Source of the DNA: Chaetoceros tenuissimus
Taxonomy: Eukaryota > Bacillariophyta > Thalassiosirophyceae > Chaetocerotales > Chaetocerotaceae
Assembly (NCBI GenBank): GCA_021927905.1
Contig: BLLK01000069.1
Location: 2,480,001 to 2,544,000, forward strand
Reading direction: 5' to 3'
DNA: 64,000 nucleotides
This document shows, piece by piece, positions 23,190-56,236 of the stretch. Made by a program: the position numbers and the translations under genes. Under the pieces are notes generated by a model. It ran no database searches, was not told the DNA's origin, and saw only the letters and a list, made by a program, of their open reading frames with translations. The first letter of the stretch is position 1. The number at the start of each line of letters is the position of its first letter.

Positions 23190-24998
23190 CTACTCAAAGG
23201 GAGGTATTGGCGTAGACCAACCATCGCGTTCTGGTAGAGTCTTGTATACTTCTTGAAGACGACTAGTAATTGGACCTTTAACTCCTTCTCCGATTACTCG
23301 TCCATCAATCAATGTCACAGGAGTAAGCTCTCCCATGGTTCCAGTGGTAAATACCTCATCTGCTGCATGAAATTCTGCCAAGGATATTCTACGAACTTCA
23401 GTCTCAATTCCAATTTCTTTTGCAATTTCAAGTACTGTCGCTCTTGTGATTCCTGGCAAACACGCGTCGGCATGAGGTGTTAACAGTACACCATCCTCCA
23501 CCATGAATACATTGGTCGCATTTGTCTCGCTCACAAATCCATCTAAATCAAGCATTAAGGCGTCCTCTACCCCAGCAAGATTGGCTTGAATCTTTGGTAA
23601 AATATTATTGATCATGTTGTTATGATGAACCTTGCTATCACAAGTTGATGGCGAGTTCCTTCTTATCGCACTAGTAATCAATGAAATTCCCTTTGTGTTA
23701 TCATATGTAGTCTTTCCTTCTGATGGTTTCCACTCAGCCAAGATTATAAGAGTTGTTCCATATACATTGAAATTAGGATTCATTGAACTGGTATATTTTT
23801 CTCCACGAGTCAAGGTTAGACGCATGTGAGCACCATCTCGCATTCCATTGACAGCTAATGTTTTGAATATGGCTTGAATAACCTCTTCCTTGCTATGTAC
23901 ATTCTTGAATCCAAGAGCCTTTGCTGATTTAAAGAGACGCTTCAAATGGCGCTCAAGTGATAATATTTTATTTCTGTACACCCGTATTCCTTCCCAACAG
24001 GCATCACCTCCTTGTACACTGCTATCCCATGGGGAGATACTAGCCATCTCTCTTGGGACTAGTCTTCCACGTCCAGGGGCGCCAATATACACCAAGATAT
24101 TCTCATTTCTTGGGTCTTCGTATATTTCACTTGGAGGAGGACCACGAGCTCTATGTTTGTGTGTCAAAGATTTCAAATAATTGTAAGGCCCGATTGAGAC
24201 ACGTAAAGCTCCCATCAAAGCCGGATCCAATGTCTGATAAGTATGTTTTGTATCGACAGACCATCCCGATGATTTATGCACTCCATGATACCACCACTTT
24301 GCCCAAGGCCCATCACAAGCTTTAGGTCCCTGTGGCCATGACAACATTTGTTCTGTGAAAGGAATGTCCAAGTCTTTGCAACATTGCTCGAGTGTAGCTG
24401 CTGGATCGGATGCTAATTCCTCGGATTCAATAAAAGCTACATCATCACCCCCACTAGCCTTACTTTGAATATTAGAGTAGATGGACAATAGATTAACCAT
24501 CCCAACTTCATCTGGCGATACTGCTCCGGCATGCACATCCTTTGAGCGATTCCATGAAGAAAGCATAGATACTGGATCTCGCACTAGGAGTAAGTACTTG
24601 TGCTCGATAGAAATATTTTCATCGTCCATACATAGACTGTCAAAGTCCTTCTCACAATCCTTGGCAAAGTCAAATAGTGTAGAAAATTTCGAGATATGCT
24701 TCAGAAATACAATTCCATGTTCTACATCACCCAATGAATGAATACAGCTTTTGATTCTTGTATTCATATCAAGCTTCTCACGAGACCATCGTTCAGCATC
24801 AGGAAAATCAGGATGAGATGTTCCATTGATTAATTCTTTCATATATGGTCTGGTCACATTATTCTCATTCACTTCAAGCCAACGCCTATAAAGAGGTTCG
24901 TCAATGACTTCTGTATCTTTCCTCGCATCGAAGCTGTACATTAGCGCTGTGCTCCTTGACCTTGGAGCACTCCAACAATGAACAATGGTAACTTTCAT
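23190..24998 (-). CDS. Sulfotransferase-like / class IV aminotransferase fusion
   Basis: Single exon, 602 residues. Residues 1-280 resemble a sulfotransferase-type P-loop fold: S-A-P-R-S-R-S-T (5' phosphosulfate site) at 10-17 and L-L-V-R-D-P-V-S-M-L-S-S-W at 137-149 (3' phosphate site). Residues 300-600 are a PLP-dependent class IV (branched-chain/D-amino-acid) aminotransferase: C-W-E-G-I-R-V-Y, L-x-R-H-L-K-R-L, the PLP lysine K456 in S-K-V-H-H-N-N, E-T-N-A-T-N-V-F and T-G-T-M-G-E-L-T-P-V. Plants have proteins of the same build, annotated branched-chain aminotransferase-like. Whether the first domain still moves sulfate is unknown. No targeting peptide is seen. The upstream gene is read in the same direction. 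Confidence 0.9.
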   Translation of the reverse strand: MKVTIVHCWSAPRSRSTALMYSFDARKDTEVIDEPLYRRWLEVNENNVTRPYMKELINGTSHPDFPDAERWSREKLDMNTRIKSCIHSLGDVEHGIVFLKHISKFSTLFDFAKDCEKDFDSLCMDDENISIEHKYLLLVRDPVSMLSSWNRSKDVHAGAVSPDEVGMVNLLSIYSNIQSKASGGDDVAFIESEELASDPAATLEQCCKDLDIPFTEQMLSWPQGPKACDGPWAKWWYHGVHKSSGWSVDTKHTYQTLDPALMGALRVSIGPYNYLKSLTHKHRARGPPPSEIYEDPRNENILVYIGAPGRGRLVPREMASISPWDSSVQGGDACWEGIRVYRNKILSLERHLKRLFKSAKALGFKNVHSKEEVIQAIFKTLAVNGMRDGAHMRLTLTRGEKYTSSMNPNFNVYGTTLIILAEWKPSEGKTTYDNTKGISLITSAIRRNSPSTCDSKVHHNNMINNILPKIQANLAGVEDALMLDLDGFVSETNATNVFMVEDGVLLTPHADACLPGITRATVLEIAKEIGIETEVRRISLAEFHAADEVFTTGTMGELTPVTLIDGRVIGEGVKGPITSRLQEVYKTLPERDGWSTPIPPFE

Positions 24999-30826: not shown

Positions 30827-33800
30827 ATGCTAAGAAACCAAGTTTTTGCTGCTCTTCTCTTCATTTGTATTGGGAATTTCATCTTTTCTGTAAACGCTTT
30901 TCAACAGCCTGGGACAATGCTATTACAAAGGGCTGCGAATTATGTGAAGGCAACCTATGCGATCCAAAAGCAATATCATTTTGTGCGACAACATTCAAAT
31001 GGTATTCATAATCAATTATTCAAGGGAAAAGTACAGCAGATATCATCGAGAAGCTTTGCTACAAGATTCTTTGCAACAAGAGATGTGAACCAAAATGTTT
31101 CCATTGATGATCAGCTGATACAACTTGAATTAGAAGCAAAACGATTGACAAACCAGGATATAAATCTGAATAGTCCAAGACAAGTGGCGTCAGCATTGTA
31201 TGGTGGTGATGGTAATGGTGGTACAAGTAAGCAAATATTGCAACAGTTTGCTGTTTCGACAGATTTAGATGATGAAAAAAAACGTTTCCAAAGAGATTTT
31301 TCACTTCTTGTATTGGAATATCGAAAAGTGAAGCGAAGAGTTCAAGACTTGAATAAAAGCTCAACCGATAGAAGGAAAGAAAGGAAAAGTATTGGTGGAA
31401 ATGAAGAGAAAAGCAAAAAGTCTGACATATCCAGGCTCAAACAATCAACATCACCCACATCTGCATTGCAGACGATGGCTTTTTCGACCTTTTCTGAGTC
31501 AGATAAGAAACAAAACGACATGGTGAAATCTTTAATGTCCCCAGAAGCTGTCACTTATAGTGATCGAGTCAATACATTGTTTAATCCTATACAATCAAAA
31601 AACAAGTCGAGAATCGACAAGTATTGGGAAGAAGCCTTACAATCATTATCTAAACCATCTGCGAAAGTAATTGTTGCCCAACTTGATCCATCTTGTCCCA
31701 TGGGATATGATCCACAGGCAACACCAAATATGTTGACCAACTCAAAGAAGGTTGTTAAGAAAACAACATCAGGAATGAAAGGGACATTGCTTGCATTTGT
31801 ACGCGAAGAAAAATTAAAGAATCCGACCAATGTGATTCTAACTAGAGTTGGTGAATTTTATGAAGCATTTGGTATCGATGCAATTCTACTTATAGAATAT
31901 TGTGGGCTCAATTCAATGGGTGGCAAAGCAAGAGCTGGTTGTCCCATTCAAAATGTTCAAGCTACTCTTGATGATTTGACCTCTTCTGGTTTCAAAGTTG
32001 CAGTTTATGAGGAAGTTAATGATATAGCTGCCAAACAGACAAAAAGCAAAGGACGACTTAAATCTCGTATGCTTGCACAAGTAGTTAGCCCAGCCTCTCC
32101 AAGCTATTTGGTAAGTTTGTGTAAGACATTTGTGTTTGAGTTTATAGAGCATTTTCTGAAATTTGTCATCTCTTAGTATGATTTGGTGCTGAAAGATTCA
32201 GGCACAACTAAGGATGCTTTGTATAATTCTCCCTCAGCTAGACCTTACATAGGAGTTATTCATTCTGCTTCAGGTTACTCCGTCGTTGAAGTATTCACGG
32301 AAGAAAGATTGGTACGTGTTACAGAGCGAGTCACGGCAGAGGCTGTGGCATGTAGACTGTCCAGCAATCCGCCTGCTGATCCACTATTCTATGTTCCTTC
32401 TATGAAAGAGGAAGAAATGGGTGTATCAGGAACAAGTGGATTGATAAATACACTACCGTTTTTACCATCTCGTTGGAGTTTGGAAAATGAGGGACAATCT
32501 GCAAGGAGGCATGTGAAGAAAGTGTCACCAAGTTTACACCTTGAGATGCCAAGGCCTAACGTCTCGGATATCGAAAGGTATAAGAATTGTATATTATCTG
32601 CTATTCGTGCCAATCTTGATGATGACAATGACGAAAACAGATCGGAAAATTATATTCTCTTAGCCACTGATGACAATGAAATGAGAAATTTGACGAATCC
32701 CCTGTATTCTGAAACAGCGATTCAATTAGGACTTATGGAAGACCCTCATATCCCGTCTCTGGTAAAGTATCTTCTTCCAGCTACTGCACCAAAAGCATGT
32801 GGTCAGTTTCTAAGACGATGGCTTTTAACTCCACCACCACCATCAGTGGCAAATGCAATGTCCCAACTTATCGATTATATGAAGCACGATAGTCCTGCGT
32901 TACCGGTATTCGAGATCCCTCCAACTGGAAAGTTACTTTCGCTCATACGAGCTGGTGAGGCCAGTGATCAAATCTTCAGAGAAATTCTTGGAGCGTTGAA
33001 AGCAACTATTCAAGTAATAGATCTATTCGCGGATGATCCAAGGAGTGAAGAGATAACGCAGTCCTTGATGAAAATTCTTCGCTTTGAGTCTGGTTTAGTC
33101 AGCTCCGCGGAAAACCTTAAAAATCGCTGCCTTGATGCTATTCAGTTGATAGAAGAAGTTGTCTTGGAAGAAAATCATTTCCAGGAAAGATTAGATCAAA
33201 TTTCAGTTTTCGAAGATGACATAATCCCCCCCATATTTTTGGAGCGTAATGAAGCAACATGGCGTGGACGAATCAAGCGAGAAGCGTCAGGAGATGCTTA
33301 TGATACAGTCGAAGCTGCCGCAAGAGCTTTGATTGAAGCTGTCAAAGTTGATTTCTGGGGATACACAGATGTATCAGACTCCTCCACTGCCAAGGAGGGC
33401 AAGAACCCAGTCCTTCATGATTATCACAACAACCTGATAAATCTCAAAGCTATCCCCACTTGGACTGAAGAAAAGGATGCTTACTACCACCCACACGATC
33501 GCAACAACAAGATCATTCGCTCTCGTTACACAACTCAACGTGTAGAAGATGCCTTATCGAAATACGTTGAAGCTTGTGAATATGCAAAGGTCTGTGTCGA
33601 AGAGGTATTAAAGACGCTGAGTCGGACTCTTTGCGAAACTGGCCATTTACCTGCCATCACACAAGCTTCCCATACAAATCTTATTCTATTCACTTCTTCT
33701 CAGCATGCAGCCCAAGCAAATACTTTAGGATGGGCACTTCCTGAAATCTTTGATAGTGATGAAGGTGATGTACCATCAGCATGTCGATTTGTCGATCTGC

Positions 33801-34888
33801 ATCCTTATTGGATGGACAAATCAGATGCTACTTTAAATTCTTTTGACCTGGATGGGATGTTTCTATTAACTGCACCAAACATGTCAGGAAAGAGTACCAT
33901 AATGCGTTCAGCTGCTGCTGCTGTACTTTTGGGCGTATGTGGGTTTTGTGCACCAGTCGCGGAAACATCTTTTGTCAAGCGTTTCGATTCCCTATTTGTT
34001 AGAGGCGCAAGTGCGGACATCCCAACAGAAAACAAAAGTGCATTTGGGGCGGAAATGGGAGACATAAGTGCACTGCTTCGAGCATGTAGCAATAAATCTT
34101 TAGTTTTTGTGGATGAGCTTGGAAGAGGAACTAGTCCAAAGGATGGTACTTCACTAGCCGGTGCTGTACTTGAGGATATGGCCAAAACAGGGATGAAAGG
34201 TTTCTTTGCAACACACCTGCACTCTATTTTGGACATGCCATTATGTGAAGATGCAAAGCAAAATATTCTACACAAACGGATGGAATTCCTAGAAAAAGGA
34301 AATGAATTCCGTTGGACATACAAACTTGCGGATGGAGTTTGTACAGACAGTAAAGCTCTTATGACTGCAAAAATTTTTGGAATTTCAGACAAAATCATCA
34401 GCAGAGCAAAAGAATTGTCATATTTCCTTGACAGCCAAGGTCAGACACCTTCTCAACCTGCTCCCATTTTACACAAAACATCAGAGGACTCCAATCATCA
34501 TGAAGATATTGTAGGTCCTGATGGTACCAAAAACCGAGAATTCCAATCAGAAGCTCTCCTCATCCTAGAAGAGATGAGTGGTGGAACTCCTGTTTGTATC
34601 GAGCCAAAATGGTCTCCTCCTGCGAAGCTTGAAGGGGTATCAATTGTATATGTCTTAAGTTTTAACGATCGATTTTATGTTGGAGAAACGGACAAGTTCG
34701 CGGCTCGCTTAAGAAAGCACAGATACAAACCTCATCTAACCAATGCTTTTACAATGGCTGTCGTAGTGGAAGGTGGGAAAACTGATGCAAAAAACCTGGA
34801 ATCTAGACTCATTCAACGAATGGCGAGAGAGGGTTTCGACATGATTAGTACAACTGACGGAAGAAAGATTAAACCAAGAAACAGATGA
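30827..34888 (+). CDS. MSH1: MSH1-type organellar MutS with C-terminal GIY-YIG domain
   Basis: Two exons, 30827-32110 and 32177-34888, 66-base intron, joining as S-Y-L then Y-D-L-V. The protein is 1,331 residues. Residues 1-25 form a signal peptide ending V-N-A-F-Q, a plastid-type A-F step, followed by a basic Ser/Arg stretch. The mismatch-binding domain has F-Y-E at about 343-345 (G-E-F-Y-E-A-F). The ATPase has Walker A A-P-N-M-S-G-K-S-T near 995, D-E-L-G-R-G-T-S and F-F-A-T-H-L-H. The last 80 residues are a GIY-YIG nuclease-type fold (Y-V-L-S-F-N-D-R-F-Y-V-G-E-T then R-L-R-K-H-R), the hallmark of MSH1. In plants MSH1 guards organelle DNA against mutation and illegitimate recombination. A mitochondrial or dual location is also possible. 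Confidence 0.95.
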
Positions 34889-35036: not shown

Positions 35037-37343
35037 TCACTTCCTTTTCAGTAATTCCTTGTTCGACTTCCGTTGATGGTCAAGCAGCTGCTTCTGCATT
35101 TTACGAATGTCTTTTCTGTATGTATCTCTAGAATTTGAGGGTACGCTCATTCTATAACGAAGTTCTTCAGTTCCTAAACATTCCGCAAGTTCTAGCAGTG
35201 TACCAATAACAGTGGAAATATGGTTTGGTGCAATTTTATCTGGTCTCATAGTTAGATAGTACCATTCACCAGTTGAAGGCTCAAGACCAACTTCTGCAAT
35301 ATTAGCATTTGTCTCATTTCGATCGGCTTCAAGACGTCGAAGTTCACTTTTCGGCAAATGGATGAAGCGTGACATTTCAACCATACTACCGTCTTCACCA
35401 GTGACTGCAACCGTGAGAGCATCTTCATCGGCATCGATCGGCCCTCTTCCATATCCCGGAGGCATGATTTGAACATCAATTGTAACGGTGTCAAGATATT
35501 TCCATTTAAGCAAATTTGTGTCTGTTCCACAAACATACGGAAGATTAGGTTGAAAAATAATTCCATCGGTCAAATGATTATGAAGATCACCATTTTTGTA
35601 AGTCCTCAACCCCTTTTCCTCGACTACATGTGACAGTAAGTTGTCAAGTTCGATTCTCTTCACAAAATTCTTTCGAACAAGAGGAAGTGGGATGTTTCGA
35701 TCTTTCACTGCAGATTCGGCAAACATGTCTCTATCAGCAGATTTTGTTCGAAAACCGGCTTGGCGAAGGCATTTCAGTCTCTGAGCAAATGGATATTGAA
35801 GAACTGGGCCATTATCTGATATACAAAGCACATCAAAAACAATAAAGATGGGCCTACGGAGTTTTCTATGCATAACTACTTCACCATCTAAAACCGTACC
35901 AGCATTGATCAAAGCAATAACGGAAGCCATAGGATCTTCGCTTCCTTTAAATTTGGGCTGCTTGCCCTTCATTGCCCTATCCACCAAGACAACAGTGTCC
36001 CCAGTAAATACCATGAAGTATCTAACTCCGTCTGTTTTCTCACTTAAAAAATATCCACCGGTGTCTCCACTTCGCTGAACCTCTTCAATGTTGTGTCGTG
36101 AAAAGTTAACAGGCATACATCCTGGAAATTTGATATTCATTAAATTTGCAGAAGGTGTAGGTGACTTCCCGTTTGTAGTAATTGCACTCTGAAACATTGC
36201 TTGTCCACCATTACGCCTGGAATCCATAAATTTCTTTAAAGCCCCACATTGTGCAAGTGCAAGATTGACAGCAGCTTGATTCGGATGATCTTGAAGAAAT
36301 TCTTCAACATCTAAAACATCGGAAAGGGGATTCAGTTGAGAAATCATGTACCATAGTTGTTTGGCCAATCCTTCACACAATGCGTTTGCTTTTTGATTGT
36401 CATTCTCATTCACAAGCTTTAAAGTGGAGTTCGGGTCTAATTCCATCTCGATTTCATACTCAATTGTTGTTTTGCCATTCATATCAGTTGTTGTCACTTC
36501 TGTCACATCAAGCTGCCATTTGAAAGAACCATCTTTTCGAACATAGCTTCTACGACGCTTCAGTCTCTTGCTTGTCCATCCACGAGGTGGCTCTATAACC
36601 TTATCATCTAGAATTCTTTCTGTAGCTAAACCAAGACGTAAATCGTATGGAGAACTTGGTAGACCAATATCCATGGTGCATAATTTGGATTTATTCTCCA
36701 TTTTACCCCTTCTATTTGGATTACTACGGCCACTATCATGTTCACCACTAAAGCAAACTCTGTTATTCTCCGCGTATCCACTATACACAGTTTCTACCAT
36801 ATCTTTCTCAACAAGTGAATTTCTAAGTATAGATGAATCATTAACTCCATTAGTCTTTAGTCCAAACGCAGATGATAGAGGTGATGCTTCTGACAATCCA
36901 GCAATTGTCCAGTTAACAAAATTGTTCTTTGTGATTCCACCTTCAAAATTGCATCGGGGCAAATTTGGCTTTGGTGTACAATCAAATGCATTCGCAATCA
37001 CCGACCTTCCATTCCTATTAATTGTTTTTGGGCCAGATGGAAAAACTCTCATTTCACGTGCCCCAAATGAAGGCTTAAGAATCCCTAGCCTAGCTTCAAT
37101 TTCACAGAAGGGCTTTGTGATTGGCATAGGTGTTCCCTTGGGAATATTTTTACGAGCTGTTGTTCGTGCTGTCATCAGAAAAATCCGAAGTGCCTCTTCA
37201 GGATCTACTGGATGGGCAAGGAAGGGATTTGAAGGCTTTCGAGATACATGATGACTTGCACTATTTTCATTCTGTCTAGCTTGCTTGCTGATTAAATTGG
37301 CCATCATGCCAGCTGATGTTGCATTACGTTTGTTGCCGCTCAT
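35037..37343 (-). CDS. mRNA capping enzyme: tunnel-type RNA triphosphatase fused to guanylyltransferase
   Basis: Single exon, 768 residues. Residues 40-350 look like a triphosphatase tunnel metalloenzyme (Cet1 type): first strand C-E-I-E-A-R-L-G with E81 and E83, and a late strand Y-E-I-E-M-E-L-D with E297, E299 and E301, the two metal-binding E-x-E motifs; basic patches R-R-R lie between. Residues 400-740 are an RNA guanylyltransferase: active site E-K-T-D-G-V-R with K436, then D-G-E-V-V (motif III), F-D-V-L-C (IIIa), L-T-D-G-I-I-F-Q (IV) and L-L-K-W-K (V). It would remove the 5' gamma phosphate and add GMP to nascent mRNA. Yeast has these on two proteins and animals use a cysteine phosphatase instead. 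Convergent with MSH1, 148 bases apart. Confidence 0.92.
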   Translation of the reverse strand: MSGNKRNATSAGMMANLISKQARQNENSASHHVSRKPSNPFLAHPVDPEEALRIFLMTARTTARKNIPKGTPMPITKPFCEIEARLGILKPSFGAREMRVFPSGPKTINRNGRSVIANAFDCTPKPNLPRCNFEGGITKNNFVNWTIAGLSEASPLSSAFGLKTNGVNDSSILRNSLVEKDMVETVYSGYAENNRVCFSGEHDSGRSNPNRRGKMENKSKLCTMDIGLPSSPYDLRLGLATERILDDKVIEPPRGWTSKRLKRRRSYVRKDGSFKWQLDVTEVTTTDMNGKTTIEYEIEMELDPNSTLKLVNENDNQKANALCEGLAKQLWYMISQLNPLSDVLDVEEFLQDHPNQAAVNLALAQCGALKKFMDSRRNGGQAMFQSAITTNGKSPTPSANLMNIKFPGCMPVNFSRHNIEEVQRSGDTGGYFLSEKTDGVRYFMVFTGDTVVLVDRAMKGKQPKFKGSEDPMASVIALINAGTVLDGEVVMHRKLRRPIFIVFDVLCISDNGPVLQYPFAQRLKCLRQAGFRTKSADRDMFAESAVKDRNIPLPLVRKNFVKRIELDNLLSHVVEEKGLRTYKNGDLHNHLTDGIIFQPNLPYVCGTDTNLLKWKYLDTVTIDVQIMPPGYGRGPIDADEDALTVAVTGEDGSMVEMSRFIHLPKSELRRLEADRNETNANIAEVGLEPSTGEWYYLTMRPDKIAPNHISTVIGTLLELAECLGTEELRYRMSVPSNSRDTYRKDIRKMQKQLLDHQRKSNKELLKRK

Positions 37344-45557: not shown

Positions 45558-48500
45558 ATGCATACCCCGTTCAAGTTCAGAAAAGAAGGTGCAACTGAAG
45601 TGTTTCACTTTTTATCTTCGCCTGCTCGAAGAATGCAGAAAGAAGCGAAGAATTTCACAGATGATAAACAGAAGAAGAAAGGAACATGCACTGGTGTTTT
45701 CATTCCTTGTCTAGATAGCATTCTGAGCGTTATTCTCTTTCTACGTCTTCCATCAATAACAGCACAGGCGGGTATAATCCAAACGACTATGATCATCATT
45801 ATTTGTGCGTTGTCTACATTCTTAACTGCAATTTCATTGAGTGCAATTGCTACAAACGGAAAATTAGGGAATGGGGGACCATACTATATAATAAGTCGGA
45901 CGCTGGGACTTGAAATTGGCGGTGCTCTCGGACTTCTATACTATCTAGGGATGACCATGGCATCTGCACTCTGTGCTCTGGGAGGTGTTGAGGCTTTCTT
46001 GTTATCAATTGAAGGGGACACAGTAGATTTGGAAGAAGTCACCAACGGAGCGCTTGGAGGTTCTTATGAGTCCACTGAACATGATTTTGAAATGAATGGA
46101 GAAGGTTTGGCTAGAAGAATTTTGCAGGGAAGTATGGAAGCAATCATTGAGAACCAAAATAATCCAGAAGTCATGATACAGTCTCCGCAGGGCGAAGTTA
46201 TGTCAATGCAGCAAACAGGAGAAATGTTAAGTGCGATGCAGCAAACAGGAGAAATACAAAATGCAATAGAAATGGAAGTGGTTCCTGATTTGACACAGTC
46301 AATGCTAGATACTCAAATGTTATCAATGTTCCTGGTTTTCATTTTGATGATGTTTGTGGCTACAGGATATAAAACAGCTTTGAGCATTTCCTCGCGACTT
46401 TTGTTTGTAGTGATTATTCTGAGCATTACAAGTGCAGTGGTAGGATGCATAATGTTTCGAAGCGGCTCTACTCATAGTGCTTTAGACTATCATGACCTCG
46501 GTACAACATTATTTGAAAATATCTATCCAAGATATGAACCTGACTCTCTGACGAATGTGACCCCTAATTTTATAAGCCTTCTAGCGCTATGGTATCCGAG
46601 CGTGACAGGAATTTTGACAGGATCTCTCAATTCCGAAGAACTTGAACAAGCATCGACATCAATACCTTATGGAACTATCGGGAGTGTTTTTGTTTCCACA
46701 TTTATCTACATTTCATTCTCATGGTTATTTGGAATGACTGTTGCAAACCAAACATTGAAGAAAAGAAAATTCATATTAGCAGCAATAGCATATCCTTCAC
46801 CATGGATGGTGAGAGTTGGGGTTCTAGTCAGTACAATAAGTGCAGCTTTAGGTTACATGTACTCGGCAACATTGGTTCTATCAGCGATTGCCTCAGATTC
46901 TTCTATGCCTGTATTAAATTTCATACAGAAAGGGGACCACATCATACATGATCAAGATGTATCAAATAAAGAGGAAGAAGGTTTAAAGAAATCGATTAAT
47001 AGAAGAGCTTTGATTTTGACTTGGATGATAGCTTCTTTTCTAACAATCAGTGGGAATCTTGATCATATTGCGCCAATGATAACAGTGATTTACATTATCA
47101 TGTTTGCAGGCATAAATTTCAGTTGCTTTCTTCTCGGCGTTCTGCAGTCCCCCGGATTCCGACCTACATTTCGGTGAGTGGAAAATACTTTCGTGAAAAT
47201 ATTTTGAAATGATCTTGCCATGATTTATATTGCTGACAGCTTGCTTCTTGCCCAGTTTTTACCATTGGTCTGTTAGTCTAATAGGTTTTGTCTGGAATGT
47301 ATCTCTAGCTTTAGTTATTATGCCAGCAGAGTTTTGTTTTGTATCGGGTATATTCCTCATTCTCCTTACCTATAACGCAAAGATGATTGAAAAAAGAAAA
47401 GATTTTGGGGATGTTTTTGATACCCTTAAATACAACGTTGTCACAAAAACATTGGAATCTTTGAGGTAAGATTTTGCTACATTCCGATAGATCATTATCC
47501 TCTTTATCCGCGAGTAATGGTAGTCTCAACATGTTTTTCTGTAATTTATAGTAAGGATACCACCGCCAACTTTAACGCAAAAAATTGGCGACCACAGGTG
47601 CTTACCTTTGTCGATATGGATGCTTATGGGCAACCAACCAATCTCTTCTTGCTTAGTCTCAGTTCTCAACTACGGAGAGGGAAGGGCATAAATATCGTAG
47701 TTGGGCTCATATTACGAGACCTGCTACAAGATAATTCTGATCTTGACCAACATCAATCCGGTATCGAAGACGACAACATTATGGAAGTTCTCAACAATGG
47801 TAAAAATGTGCTCCAATCGTTTATGAATTCTGAGAGAATGGAGGGTTTTCCACAGGTCTCTTTGACCACAAGGAAAGGCATGTGTGATGCTGCATGGTCT
47901 GCCATCTTGCACAGCGGACTTGGACCTTTGAGTCCAAATACTGTTTTGATATCATATCCATCGCAAATTCAGAGAAATACGTCAAAAGAGTATTGGTCGG
48001 AGACGGACTTTATCCGTATGATCAAAGGAGTCAACAACATGAAGCTTTCTCTTGGAATATTCAAAGGAAGCCATTCCTTCCCAAGCAGCAAACAGCTAGT
48101 TTCTTCGGGTATAATCGATGTATGGTGGATATTGAATACAGGTGGTCTTCTTTTACTCCTTCCTCATATTTTAGCAAAGAATTCAGTTTGGGGAAGAGGA
48201 GGTGCAAAAGTTCGTATTTTTGCTGTTTTGACTGATGAGAATGTTGACTCAGAACAATTTGAGTTTGAAGTTAAGAGATACCTCAAAGATTTGAGAATAG
48301 TTGCAACTGTGTCTATCGTTGACATGAGTGCATATTCATTGGAAAATGATATGCGAAAAACAGTTCCGCGTACAGGACCATACAAAAGTATGTTCGAGAA
48401 TAGAGAAATCCACGAACAAACTATAGCTGAGTCACTGTGTCTCAAAACAAATTACAAGGATGTTGATAATTCTTCATCGACTATTATCGACGTAAATGAT

Positions 48501-48782
48501 CGTGATATATCAGTGAAAAACCAGCAGTTGTCAGAAAGTACAATGGAAGAAGGAATGCAAACAATTCATATGAACAGACAGAGACTGAAAAATGCTGCGG
48601 CATTGAACGAAATCATGCGTCTTCATAGCTCTTGCTCGAATCTTGTCATCTGCAACATGCCATGGATAGATTCCAAATATTCAAGCGATTTTTTCCACTA
48701 TGTTGATACTATGTGTACGGATATTAATAATTGCCTATTGGTTCGTGGATCAGGGAATGAAGTTATTACAAGTTATGCTTGA
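45558..48782 (+). CDS. Cation-chloride cotransporter (SLC12 family)
   Basis: Three exons, 45558-47173, 47256-47465 and 47552-48782 (introns 82 and 86 bases), 1,018 residues in one frame. It carries Na+ and/or K+ with Cl- across a membrane. Diagnostic text: G-V-F-I-P-C-L-D-S-I-L-S-V-I-L-F-L-R-L-P in helix 1, L-T-A-I-S-L-S-A-I-A-T-N-G and G-G-P-Y-Y-I-I-S-R-T-L-G-L-E-I-G-G-A-L-G-L-L in helices 2-3, G-I-L-T-G-S-L-N, and R-P-T-F-R-F-Y-H-W-S across the first splice. The C-terminal half is the soluble SLC12 domain ending V-R-G-S-G-N-E-V-I-T. Odd: the loop after helix 3-4 (about 155-250) is long, acidic and Met/Gln-rich with a doubled A-M-Q-Q-T-G-E phrase. Ion preference cannot be read from sequence. 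Confidence 0.93.
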
Positions 48783-48889: not shown

Positions 48890-51800
48890 TTACCACCAAA
48901 AGTTTACGCTTGCGCTAGTTGTAATACCTCTGACATAATGCCAGACCTTTTCGGGAATGAATAGTAAATCCCCTGGCAGCAGTACTACTTCAACAAATTC
49001 TGCATTCTCCGCCTCGGGGTGTAGGTTGAAATTCTCTTTCTCGCAATCTACCGCACTCATATTTCCTTGTAATGCATAATTACTTCCATCCTTTCCTTTC
49101 AAAACATACAACTTTTCTCTTTCAGACTGATTGTAAAGACGAACATATTTTGATCCTACAAGTTGGATGAACAAGTTAGAGTACGTGTCGAAGTGAAGAG
49201 GTGTTCTTGTTCCACCAGTTCCAATCCACGCATTGGTTTGTATAGGACCTCCCTCACCACATTGTGAAGGGGTGATCACATCATTTCTTAGTTCAGGAAT
49301 CTGATCCAATAACTGGTGTTGAGCCAAGTATGCAACTTTGCCAGTAGCATCGTCAAGTGCAAAGATAGTATGCTCAGTGCTTGGTGCCATGTGGAACTGA
49401 ATGAAATCATCAATAGTCAAAAGCTCTTCTTTCATTCCCTGTTTGGTAGACATTAAACCATGTTCAATTGGAACAATTCGTGGGCCAAAATTATTCGCAA
49501 AGTAACTCAAATGCCTCCACTTAGAGATGGCAGGAAATTTTGCAGCATAGTTTCGGACAACAAAAGGCTGTTGTCCAAAAATTTGTTTGTTCTCTACAAA
49601 GTCCTCAAAATCGACTTCTTCCACAGGATTTACGATAGGCTTGCTGAGACCTTTACTGAAAATCAATTTTCTCAAGTTTTCATCTGAGTAGTCGGGAATA
49701 ATAGCCATTTGTGAATAGCTAGAAGTATGCGAACACGTTATTCTTCTTGCATGATATTCCAAATATTGAAACAAGCTTTCAACGCGATCACGAGGCAAAC
49801 CAAATATAGAAGCTTTGTCGAGGTATTGGATAGCATGGATATAATTACCATGTTGGCCATGGGAAAGTGCCGACATCACACAAAAACAGCCATGAGCTTC
49901 TCTCATCAGGGCATCGGGCCACATTTTGTGTTCATGAAGAAGAGAAATACAAGCCTTTTCAGCAACGTCTGACACTGCTTTTAGACCACAGAAATCCTTG
50001 CACATCATACAATCAATAGTTTTCTTCAACATGATAACTATTTCTGCATTTTCATGGGTTGTATTTGCAATATTTTGGCTCAGTTGAGCTCCCAACTGAT
50101 TTATAAAAGCTATAGATGGTGCTGCTATGACCATGGGTATTGCACCTATTGTCAACTGGCTTAACGAGGAGTTCAAATTTTGAAGTCTTTCCATGATCAT
50201 TGAATCTCCATTTTCTTCAACACTTTCATCATCTCCTGTACCACTGCTTTCGTCAGTATCGTCATCTTCACCAAAAGGATCATCCTCACCAAATATATCT
50301 TCATTTGATGCAGAAACATCTCTTTTTACCACATTTTGATCATCTTCATTTCCATTGCATTCTCTAAAGCATTTTGAACAAATACATTTGAATCCATAGT
50401 TTAAAAGTAATGCCTGCCTATTCTCATAAGAAGCATCTGCGTCAATGTAGCTGATGCACAGTTCTTCACCAGGCGCTATATCTCTCTTTGCAACGCATTG
50501 TATAACTAATGGATAGTCTTTCCCCCATCTTGCCATCATTCCTCCTCCAGCACAACTGTAAGAATATCTGGGCACAACATTAGCATCACAAGAGTGATTC
50601 TGTTTACAAGTAATAGAATACATGCATGTCCCATCTAATGGAACAAACATTGCATCAAGATCATCACCCATAACATTATCTACGTCATCGTGATCGTCAT
50701 CATCACCCTCTCCTTCTGCTTCGTCAACTCCTTCATTATTTACAGCATCACTTCCCTTATCTTTGAAACCAAGCCCTTGTTCATCAATTTTTAAAGTTGC
50801 GAGGAAAGATGCTATATCTTCCACACTGTAATCATATCCATTTTCACCTCTACTGTCTATCTCAGTAGTGTCAAGAGATGAATCCTTTTCAACTGTGTCA
50901 GCTGGTACATTATGATCATTCTCTTCCGCCTCGTCTTCATCATTTTCATCGTCATCACCAATCATACCAGCGAGATCGATGATAGTGACCAATTCTTCAT
51001 GTCTTCTCTTTCTTAAATCTGCATTTTCAAGAATATCTCTGCACAGAGGAGATCGAGCTCGAATACCAAGAGAATTTTGTTCAAATGATCCAATTATCTT
51101 TCCAAAAAAGTTTTCTGAGAAGATCGCATACTTTTCTTGACACTCATCCATAGCCATTTTCAGAGTATCTTTAAATTCGTCATCACCATCTATACAGACG
51201 AATGCCTCTTTTAATAATTTGGACGAAGTATCACAGAGTTCCCGAAGTGTTTTATTCAAGTGCACACATTCCGTCATCTTCATAGGATCATTAATCATGT
51301 GAGCAGTTGCAACCTCCCACCATGGTACAAGTGTGAAATCGAGATACGGAGCCAGTAACTTTTCCAATGCGTCTTTGTCATTTCCTGTTGAATCGTCATT
51401 CCTTTCTCTTAGCATCAAGTCTCGTGCAATTTGTCTGCGTCTAATTGATACTACTGCAGCTACCAAATCAGCCACAAGCAGAAATATTTCATTACTTTGA
51501 ACAGCATGAACTTTGAACTGTAATAAAGGATGAAGCTCTTCACATTCTGTTTCATTCTTTCCTTCTGGTATCAAACCAGTACAAAGTAAATCATGACCAG
51601 CCAAATGGCACTCATTCTCACATTTCTTGCTGCAAAATAATTCTCCACAATTATTACGACATGGAACCATCTTGTAGTTCAAATTTTCATTGGCAGAACC
51701 TAAGCCTAAAATTTCACTTTCATTTTCGTTGTAATAACTCCATACACCATCACGATTCAATTTACCAGATGCTAAAAGCATACATAGATCTGGTCCACCT

Positions 51801-51973
51801 ACAAATGCCCGACAAGATCGGCAACACAGAGCTCCTTGATGGGAATTTGCTACTGATTGGAGAGAGAGCAATGGCCTTTCAACAAAAATCACTTCATCTT
51901 TAGCAATATGTTCTGTTGCACATAGATGCCTTCCTCGAAATGCATCATCTTTCCTAACAAATCTATCTTTCAT
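48890..51973 (-). CDS. SET-MYND / JmjC fusion protein
   Basis: Single exon, 1,027 residues from the ATG at 51973. Residues 1-540 form a SMYD-like split SET domain: G-R-H-L-C-A-T-E-H-I at the start, a zinc cluster with C-C-R-S-C and C-x3-C-G-E-L-F-C-S-x2-C, N-H-S-C-D-A-N near 457, G-E-E-L-C-I-S-Y-I-D, and post-SET C-I-C-S-K-C. A long acidic stretch (about 330-440) interrupts it. After an acidic linker and helical region, residues 770-1027 are a JmjC/cupin domain of the KDM8 (JMJD5) type: W-I-G-T-G-G-T-R-T-P-L-H-F-D with iron ligands H927 and D929, K-Y-V-R-L-Y, then L-F-I-P-E-K-V-W-H-Y-V-R with H1012, ending S-V-N-F-W-W. Both catalytic sites look whole. It would methylate and oxidise protein side chains; targets unknown. 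Confidence 0.93.
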   Translation of the reverse strand: MKDRFVRKDDAFRGRHLCATEHIAKDEVIFVERPLLSLQSVANSHQGALCCRSCRAFVGGPDLCMLLASGKLNRDGVWSYYNENESEILGLGSANENLNYKMVPCRNNCGELFCSKKCENECHLAGHDLLCTGLIPEGKNETECEELHPLLQFKVHAVQSNEIFLLVADLVAAVVSIRRRQIARDLMLRERNDDSTGNDKDALEKLLAPYLDFTLVPWWEVATAHMINDPMKMTECVHLNKTLRELCDTSSKLLKEAFVCIDGDDEFKDTLKMAMDECQEKYAIFSENFFGKIIGSFEQNSLGIRARSPLCRDILENADLRKRRHEELVTIIDLAGMIGDDDENDEDEAEENDHNVPADTVEKDSSLDTTEIDSRGENGYDYSVEDIASFLATLKIDEQGLGFKDKGSDAVNNEGVDEAEGEGDDDDHDDVDNVMGDDLDAMFVPLDGTCMYSITCKQNHSCDANVVPRYSYSCAGGGMMARWGKDYPLVIQCVAKRDIAPGEELCISYIDADASYENRQALLLNYGFKCICSKCFRECNGNEDDQNVVKRDVSASNEDIFGEDDPFGEDDDTDESSGTGDDESVEENGDSMIMERLQNLNSSLSQLTIGAIPMVIAAPSIAFINQLGAQLSQNIANTTHENAEIVIMLKKTIDCMMCKDFCGLKAVSDVAEKACISLLHEHKMWPDALMREAHGCFCVMSALSHGQHGNYIHAIQYLDKASIFGLPRDRVESLFQYLEYHARRITCSHTSSYSQMAIIPDYSDENLRKLIFSKGLSKPIVNPVEEVDFEDFVENKQIFGQQPFVVRNYAAKFPAISKWRHLSYFANNFGPRIVPIEHGLMSTKQGMKEELLTIDDFIQFHMAPSTEHTIFALDDATGKVAYLAQHQLLDQIPELRNDVITPSQCGEGGPIQTNAWIGTGGTRTPLHFDTYSNLFIQLVGSKYVRLYNQSEREKLYVLKGKDGSNYALQGNMSAVDCEKENFNLHPEAENAEFVEVVLLPGDLLFIPEKVWHYVRGITTSASVNFWW

Positions 51974-52839: not shown

Positions 52840-55800
52840 ATGAAGGCAAGCTATGTTTTTCTTTTCACATCATCATTTCTGCTGCGGTCAGCAATTGCTG
52901 CTGGTGTTGCCATTGCTCACAAAGCAAATGATAGCTTTGCAGCTTGTATTTTGGTTATGGATGATAACCACAGAATTATTGGTATGTAAAAGGATTGATA
53001 TTTCTTCTACATTGCACATCATGCAAAAGATCTAACATTTGTATTTACAAATTACAGAATGGCTGGCTTATCATTACCACACTCTTCCTCTTTGTCGAGT
53101 TATTGCAATGACTGACCCTAGAAGCAAGACTTCTCCTTTTTCTATTCTCCAGAGATGGGAGAAATATATCAAATTTGATCTTTGGTCTGATAATGATATA
53201 TTTTCGGAAGAAGAATTGAAAAATAGAAGTGATGAAAATATGATCAAGCTTCATTGTTCTCGTCAGCATGCTTTCAATGTTAAATGCATGCAAACATTGA
53301 GAGAGGAAGGAGCCGCATGGACTGTCATGACAGATGTTGATGAATATGTGTGTATTAATCCTCTTGCATGGAATCCATCTGCAAATTTGTATCAGAAAGA
53401 TATTGCTCCTATCCCAATTGATCAGCCAGGTTCAATTATTGACATGCTGAACAAGGTAGACCTCGACGACGAACAAATCCATGCACAAGAATGGAAAGCA
53501 TGTATTCCAATTGCTCATTTTCAGTTTGGCAGAATTGAAAGTTCCATCGACAAAGTCAATTCCATGTTCCCAAAAGAGCTCAAGCCTTCCATTCTTGCAA
53601 ATGACTTTGATACTTTCTGTTGGAGATACTATGGAACTGATAGAGTCACTGCTCGTAATGGTGTACTCCCTGGAAAGACTCTTGTTGATGTCAGCAGTAT
53701 TCCTGAGAAAGAAATGAAGAGATTAATTGGTGGTCCTCATCGTCCAGTGGATAAACGTTGTAAAGGAGGAAATGTTTGGCTTAATACCAACGAGACTCTA
53801 AGAAATTTGGATTTGAGTACAAGAGAGTTGGCATTCTTCCGCACTGATGCTTTTTACGCAACACCAGTTGATATTTTCAAGGTTGACAAGGATACTTTTG
53901 ATTATCACAACTGTTATGCAGTAATCCCAGGTTTCAGAAGATTCCCTGCCAATGATCGCATGATGTATGGTCCTATTGATGCTGTCAGAATCTGGGCAAC
54001 ACAAAGATTCAGTCGCCTAGAGCATCATATTTCCACCTATGAGCTCAAGGGCTACAGAATACACTCTGAAAGATACATGGGTCATGAAATTCTGCCAGCC
54101 ATCAGGAACGAAACTGGTTATGAAGTTGTTGAAAATGTAGATATTTGTTTCTATTGTGCTCGAGCTGCAGATAGTGTCATAATTACAGATTGTTCTGATC
54201 CAAAAGGAAGAATAGTTCGTGGAATTACAGATATTGATCAGGTTGCAATTGTGGAGAACATGATTCATTGTGTGTGTGAAGAGCATTCTTTTGATTCAAG
54301 TGGGCGCTTCAAGGAGCTTTGTTGCGATGACTCTCCTTCCAAAGTATCTATACATAAACTTCAAGGTTCGTTGAATCCATCTCTTGTCCTGTCAGCTGCA
54401 CCATACACATTCGGTGCTCCATATAATACTGCTGCTCCATATGACACAGCTGCTCCATATCCAAATAGTTCTCCTGCGGCTCCTTACAAAAAAGATGATG
54501 GAAACAAAGCTTCCCCAACAATGTCACCAAGTGCCTCTCAGTCTACACAGCCGTCAAAATTCCCAAGCTCCAAGCCTTCAGCAAAAACTTCTGCACCTTC
54601 TTCAACGCCATCATCGAAGCCAAGTTTTATGAAATCAACCGCACCTTCAGTACTTCCTTCAAAAAAACCAAGCTCTATTTCATCATCGAAGCCAAGTCTG
54701 TTGAAATCTTCGACGCCTTCAGTACTTCCTTCAAACAAACCAAGTCCAACTCTGACAAGCTCACCCAGCTCTCAGCCATTGGACAGTCCTTCAAACAAAC
54801 CAAGTTCAACTCCGACAAGCTCACCCAGCTCTCAGCCATCAGACAGTCCTTCAAACAAGCAAAGTTGTTTTCCTTCAAGTTCACCCAGCTCAACACCGTC
54901 AAATGAACCAAGTCTGTTGAAATCTTCGATGTCGTCAGTATTCCCTTCAAACAAACCAAGCACTATCCCAACTTCAAAGCCCAGTCTACTGAAATCTACA
55001 GCACCTTCACTGCATCCTTCCAGCTCCCCTACATTGATAACAAGCACAAATCCTTCCTCAACCCCAACTTTATTTCCATCAGATACTCCTTCCTTTTTAC
55101 ATTCATATCATCCATCTATCACTCCAACATATTCGCCCTCTTCATCAGTGTCATCTGATCCTTCGATATCATTATCGCCATCAACAAAACCAAGCCATTC
55201 ACCTTCAACAGAACCCAGCGCATCCCCAACATCTAGTCCAACATCTCATCCTTCGTTTGCACCTACATTTCAACCTTCAGCATGTATGGATTTGATTGAT
55301 AATTGGATGGACTCTAGTGGTGATACTTGTGAGTGGTATGGAAGTACTTCTAGCTGTGATCTTTTGGGTGATAAGTTTGCAGATACTGATGGTTTTACAG
55401 CAAAAGACATATGTTGTGTATGCGGTGGAGGAGGTACTAGGCAACAAAGAGCAAAGTTTGCCTCGCCATCTGATACATCTCCTCCAACTTCAAGCCCGAC
55501 TTTAAGTCCATCGAAGTCTTTACCGAATACATCTCAAGATAGTATGACTTCACAGATTAAAGTGTTTAAGTTGGAAATTGAAATCGGTCTGAAGGGTTAC
55601 AGCAAAAAAATGAGTGTCCATGAGATTGAAGTATTTCAAATTGTTGCAAGAAACTTTCTTAGTGATAGAACATCTGCCATAGAAGGTATGAAAGTGCACA
55701 TTGAGTCTGTACATGTTGATCACCAATTCACCAAACAGGGTGTTACAAATGGTATTATTTCAGTGAATGAGATCAAGAATAAAGGAAGAGTAATGCGTAG

Positions 55801-56236
55801 ACTGAATGAAAGTGGACTAAGGATTCAGATGACTGTCAGTGCTTACATATTTTATACTGACTTACCAGAAGAGTTCTCTTATAGTGAATTGGTATCTTCC
55901 GAACTTGAATCAGACTTTGACTTGTTCTTGCTAGAGGTGGAAAGTATTTTTAATCCTTCAACGATTAGTAGGGCAGATGTGGTAAATGAAGATTCTAAGA
56001 AATATGATATCAAATTTTGGTCATTTGTTTCAGCCACAGCTATGACAATTGTTGCTATAATAATTATTTTTGCATGGGATAGAGAGAAGAATATTGTTCA
56101 ACATGAAGTCAATCTTTTTGAGGCAGTACATGCTGAGTCATTGGCGAGAATAAACTTAATCAACATAAATTATTCGCTCTCTCCTTGTTTTTTCTCCTTT
56201 TTATTCAGCTCTTGCATTTTCAATTTTCTTCTTTGA
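52840..56236 (+). CDS. GT92-like glycosyltransferase with P-S-S-x-P-S region and membrane anchor
   Basis: Two exons, 52840-52981 and 53058-56236 (76-base intron; join I-I-E-W-L-A-Y-H-Y), 1,106 residues. Residues 1-21 are a signal peptide (F-L-L-R-S-A-I-A-A). Residues 25-430 match the GT92/DUF23 type glycosyltransferase: A-C-I-L-V-M-D-D-N, E-W-L-A-Y-H-Y-H-T-L, R-Q-H-A-F and a D-V-D-E-Y metal motif. Residues 535-785 are Ser/Pro repeats of the P-S-S-x-P-S kind common in diatom surface proteins. A cysteine cluster (789-841: C-E-W-Y, C-C-V-C-G-G-G-G) follows, then an unnamed alpha/beta domain (880-1018) and one membrane helix (about 1035-1053). A secretory-pathway or cell-surface sugar transferase is the best reading. 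Confidence 0.85.

Follow-up and report, generated by a model that had tools for sequence, protein, structure and literature searches.

The Phaeodactylum tricornutum gene model bd1647 was described in 2011 as carrying both a SET and a JmjC domain (PMC3145265). The paper tabulates it under SMYD as well as under SET+JmjC, reports that PCR on cDNA confirmed transcripts spanning both domains ('data not shown'), and proposes a dual activity for the protein. The combination is entered as 'not found' for the two other genomes of the table, a second diatom and Ectocarpus, and a Neurospora fusion is said to have the reverse order, JmjC-SET (PMC3145265). JmjC-SET proteins had been reported from filamentous fungi in 2008, with a SET domain that is related to SET3/4 of yeast, carries substitutions and is perhaps inactive (PMC2474616), and JmjC-SET genes are mentioned again in PMC9692433. 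An earlier note on the DNA analysed here had assumed that SET writers and JmjC oxygenases of known families reside on separate proteins; the P. tricornutum and fungal proteins described in these papers refute this. A diatom SET+JmjC fusion was found described in PMC3145265 only, in a search mainly of non-subscription journals, and a later mention is possible.

The locus reported here lies in a stretch of 64,000 nucleotides (the window), with a GC content of 39%. This is lower than the GC content of P. tricornutum, and the window most likely comes from a different diatom. It is a further example of the SET+JmjC kind known from P. tricornutum since 2011. The second diatom in the table of that year is reportedly T. 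pseudonana. A second instance, probably from another species, makes the P. tricornutum gene model less likely to be an oddity.

A SET half and a JmjC half in one frame

The fusion open reading frame occupies positions 48890..51973 on the minus strand and runs from ATG to TAA, 1,027 codons and a stop, bearing out the uninterrupted frame claimed in the earlier note, which gave no strand for it. From the N terminus to the C terminus it contains the following features.

51731..51934, minus strand: N-terminal SET segment, residues 14-81 (PF00856 profile positions 1-39)
51581..51826, minus strand: MYND-like Cys/His cluster, residues 50-131, with CCRSC, CRNNC, FCSKKC and HDLLC (by eye)
50651..50953, minus strand: acidic insert within the SET region, residues 341-441, 39% D/E (composition)
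50447..50653, minus strand: catalytic SET segment, residues 441-509, with NHSCDAN and GEELCISY (Pfam SET, 4.1e-10 when the SET half was searched)
50369..50386, minus strand: post-SET cysteines CICSKC, residues 530-535 (aligned to the SMYD3 post-SET region, E 0.038)
50204..50359, minus strand: acidic linker, residues 539-590, 40% D/E (composition)
49727..50200, minus strand: hydrophobic helical middle, residues 592-749 (8 helices in a low-confidence model)
48893..49591, minus strand: JMJD5/KDM8-like JmjC domain, residues 795-1027 (Pfam, PDB sequence and fold comparison)
48938..49195, minus strand: Fe(II)-ligand stretch with H927, D929 and H1012 (alignment to human JMJD5)

A Pfam search with the whole protein detected a SET domain at 5.4e-10, and the SET motifs were located as had been claimed, with GRHL at residue 14, NHSCDAN at 459, GEELCISY at 502 and CICSKC at 530. 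The SET profile aligned in two pieces, positions 1-39 with residues 14-81 and positions 51-104 with residues 446-509. The first of these is weak; scanned alone against the profile, residues 14-81 gave an E value of 0.012 and 16.4 bits, under the 22.4-bit cut-off. Since the start of the profile matches residues 14-81 and its end matches residues 441-509, the SET domain is split. SMYD proteins are defined by a SET domain split in two, with MYND between the segments, and by a cysteine-rich post-SET region (PMC3924839). No match to a MYND profile was listed by Pfam at E<=10, in searches where the HMMER filters discard most matches above 0.1. The acidic insert within the SET region is probably disordered. 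Among sequences of solved structures in the PDB, the relatives of the SET half at E<=10 were SMYD3, SMYD1 and SMYD2 only (25 of 25 matches), all of them weak, with SMYD3 the best at 0.038.

NCBIfam returned one weak and irrelevant match. The JmjC half matched Cupin_8 at 4.4e-34 and JmjC_2 at 2.3e-8 in Pfam. Seventeen of its 35 matches to PDB sequences were to JMJD5/KDM8, at 1.6e-40 to 2.8e-39; the next family, FIH, followed at 1e-8. The domain is 42% identical to human JMJD5 over the solved catalytic part. A full-length fold predicted from the single sequence had a pLDDT of 33 and was of no use. Residues 592-1027, folded with five bacterial rows in the alignment, gave a pLDDT of 47.7, and 49 of these 436 residues reached 70 or more; this model lends modest support to the JmjC fold and next to none to the middle. 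When the model, of modest confidence, was submitted to Foldseek, JMJD5 occupied ranks 1-21 among the 50 matches listed.

Roles of human JMJD5 residues in binding metal, 2-oxoglutarate (2OG) and arginine were taken from PMC5862942. The JmjC Fe(II) site proposed in the earlier note was confirmed by alignment, H927, D929 and H1012 corresponding to H321, D323 and H400 of JMJD5. Eleven of the 15 positions compared are identical (E238, Y272, Q275, W310, H321, D323, N327, K336, H400, V402 and W414); at the remaining four, the fusion has S in place of Y243, M in place of W248, T in place of S318 and F in place of L329. Five of the seven 2OG contacts are among the identical positions (Y272=Y882, W310=W916, N327=N933, K336=K942 and V402=V1014); the other two are changed, S318 to T924 and L329 to F935. 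To judge from these residues, metal binding looks intact in the JmjC half, and co-substrate binding mostly so. In the arginine-binding pair of JMJD5, E238 is kept as E837 and Y243 is replaced by S842. The tyrosine holds the substrate arginine through a cation-pi contact in the human enzyme (PMC5862942). Because this residue and three more positions are changed, the substrate may differ from that of human JMJD5.

The earlier labels of a SMYD-like SET domain and a KDM8-like JmjC domain stand in so far as Pfam and PDB matches assign both domains, but 'SMYD-like', with SMYD3 at E 0.038 and no Pfam MYND match, is weaker than 'KDM8-like'. The matches of the SET half to its relatives are far weaker than those of the JmjC half, which would suit a true fusion in which one half is catalytically important and the other is a binding or scaffold part, and the substituted, perhaps inactive SET domain of fungal JmjC-SET proteins offers a parallel (PMC2474616). 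The retention of NHSCDAN, GEELCISY, the post-SET cysteines, the HxD...H ligands and most 2OG residues argues against such a division of roles, which we regard as possible though not the likely case.

Predicted chemistry of the fusion protein

The reading that we prefer, with a probability of about 0.6, is that the locus encodes a real single chain composed of a SMYD-like split SET domain and a JMJD5-type Fe(II)/2-oxoglutarate oxygenase, by which a lysine is methylated and an arginine hydroxylated on the same substrate or complex, with no write-then-erase cycle. The alternatives to this reading are not mutually exclusive. The SET half would methylate a lysine on a substrate protein or complex, the JmjC half would hydroxylate an arginine on that same protein or complex, and the helical middle together with flexible acidic linkers would keep the two halves close together. 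'Methyltransferase plus hydroxylase' appears likelier in this analysis than 'writer plus eraser', because the JMJD5 class is associated with arginyl hydroxylation and not with lysine demethylation (PMC5862942). That paper reports C-3 hydroxylation of arginine by human JMJD5, and no demethylation by it of H3 peptides carrying mono-, di- or trimethyl lysine at K4, K9, K27 or K36. Assignment to JMJD5 thus shifts the prediction from demethylation to arginine hydroxylation beside lysine methylation. If true, the use of SAM and that of O2 and 2OG would be linked within a single enzyme in a major group of algae.

The helical middle (residues 592-749) gave no match to PDB sequences at E<=10, and its one match in Pfam, at E 0.1, was weak and irrelevant. 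A TPR-like helical region has been predicted N-terminal to the JmjC domain of human JMJD5 (PMC10065073), and helices likewise precede the JmjC domain in the low-confidence predicted fold of the fusion protein. Going by that model, the middle is perhaps a TPR-like region, and it could equal either the TPR-like part of JMJD5-type proteins or the C-terminal domain of SMYD-type ones. More speculatively, and with low confidence, we suggest that the complete JMJD5-type arginyl hydroxylase of some diatoms, TPR-like part included, may occur solely as the C-terminal portion of a SMYD-type methyltransferase. The two enzymes would then modify lysine and arginine residues next to each other on a single substrate, and the levels of O2 and 2-oxoglutarate would gate methylation.

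A writer and an eraser in cis, with methylation of a histone lysine by the SET half and demethylation of that lysine or another by the JmjC half, is in substance what was proposed for the P. tricornutum protein (PMC3145265). PDB entries also name JMJD5 as KDM8, and loss of Kdm8 is reported to raise H3K36me2 in mouse heart cells (PMC11041705). This combination is nevertheless unlikely in view of the results with human JMJD5 on methyl-lysine H3 peptides (PMC5862942) and the retention of the arginine-binding E238 as E837. The self-contained switch of the earlier note, writing and then erasing, is disfavoured by the same peptide results, human JMJD5 being the closest solved relative, and was set aside as unlikely. 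The second suggestion of that note, an oxygenase that acts close to the methylated site, may hold.

Integrity of the reading frame

Under an independent-base model with the base composition of the window, the chance of a stop-free run as long as the fusion frame is approximately 4e-30, and that of the 256 codons without a stop between the domains (residues 539-794) approximately 5e-8. The list of open reading frames contains no other frame of at least 100 codons overlapping 48890-51973, and the plus strand has many stops in frame 1 over this interval. A codon-usage score, for which 12 of 29 other open reading frames of the window served as the training set, favoured the fusion frame over the five other frames in all 17 full 60-codon blocks; this count omits the final 7-codon block, where the fusion frame is not favoured, and stop codons in the rival frames enlarge the penalty of those frames. 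The fusion frame was clearly top in the block covering residues 541-600. Absolute codon scores were below zero in five of the 17 full blocks, namely three in the middle (-0.9, -1.8 and -8.5, residues 601-780) and those of residues 1-60 and 481-540 in the SET half; the median for stop-free pieces of the window, themselves mostly coding, was +3.0. With five blocks below zero, the codon test therefore indicates the correct frame and nothing beyond. A chance frame was excluded by the two stop-free probabilities and by codon usage in the 17 full blocks.

Sixteen candidate GTRWG..YAG intron pairs were found in the linker, nine of which keep the frame. The remaining seven break it, and the exact protein sequence is therefore uncertain. 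An in-frame intron in the linker would leave the conclusion intact, whereas an out-of-frame one would alter it. These candidate splice pairs, and the low absolute codon score at residues 601-780, could reflect two genes taken as one, either by an assembly join or with transcripts ending between the halves. Such an artefact is very unlikely given the length of the stop-free linker, the lead of the fusion frame in every full block and the equivalent pairing reported from PCR on cDNA in P. tricornutum (PMC3145265).

The remaining alternative, which is compatible with a fusion, is that the JmjC half is a peptidase acting on methylated tails, so that a mark set by the enzyme leads to clipping; PDB depositors give the human enzyme the name 'bifunctional peptidase and arginyl-hydroxylase JMJD5', and entries 6avs and 6ax3 contain human JMJD5 with methylated arginine, but PMC5862942 reports hydroxylation of arginine and no modification when the arginine of its peptide carried one or two methyl groups, making this highly improbable.

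Prokaryotic and viral sequences were scanned for relatives. The JmjC half yielded five prokaryote relatives from 186 pattern matches, with best segments 24-27% identical, and none of their five stop-to-stop frames (284-351 codons) contained N[HY][SA]C, a motif of SET. On viral contigs, no relatives were obtained with the whole protein (one pattern match), the JmjC half (15), a JmjC alignment (308) or the SET core (10), the single-protein queries being sensitive to close relatives only. No relative bearing both halves was seen across the four viral scans or among the five prokaryote JmjC frames.

Several other genes of the window were noted in passing. Two adjacent open reading frames at 45558-48782 (plus strand) match amino acid permease/SLC12 and may belong to a single SLC12-type transporter gene with an intron between them; their 3' end faces that of the fusion gene across 107 bases. 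On the other side, at 53108-56236 (plus strand), is a 1,042-codon frame that includes a long stretch of Ser/Pro-rich repeats and for which Pfam gave nothing at E<=0.1. A single 602-codon frame at 23190-24998 (minus strand) encodes two enzymes, a sulfotransferase domain (Sulfotransfer_5, 9e-23) and, after it, a class IV aminotransferase (3.7e-48), and one frame at 35037-37343 (minus strand) encodes an mRNA capping enzyme with a beta-chain type triphosphatase (9.6e-12) and a guanylyltransferase (2.1e-24). A MutS domain V protein is encoded at 32402-34888 (plus strand), with a weak GIY-YIG-like stretch at its C terminus (E 0.002, 18.8 bits, under the Pfam cut-off); an architecture of MutS plus GIY-YIG is reminiscent of plant-type MSH1. 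The window also encodes RecA and trigger factor, whose N-termini carry a motif that we take to resemble diatom plastid presequences.

Comparison with known systems

With the SMYD family, of which SMYD3 is nearest, the fusion shares the split SET domain and the post-SET cysteines, and it has a cysteine cluster that resembles MYND by eye. It is unlike that family in its long acidic insert and C-terminal JmjC domain, and in that its MYND-like cluster has no profile match. To our knowledge, JMJD5 occurs without a SET domain. Human JMJD5/KDM8 and the JmjC half of the fusion have all three metal ligands and five of seven 2OG contacts in common, whereas Y243, W248, S318 and L329 are changed in the fusion.

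The fungal JmjC-SET proteins resemble the fusion in combining SET and JmjC within one polypeptide. As described in PMC2474616 and PMC3145265, they have the reverse order and a SET3/4-related, perhaps inactive SET domain, whereas the SET domain here is SMYD-like with intact motifs. The fungal proteins probably arose independently of the fusion described here. The closest described system is P. tricornutum bd1647. Like that diatom gene, the fusion gene, itself most likely of a diatom, encodes SET and JmjC together with SET first, and the two are putative orthologues; the likeness is drawn from the published description (PMC3145265). The refinement over that case is that the JmjC half here is, by its sequence matches, of the JMJD5 class.
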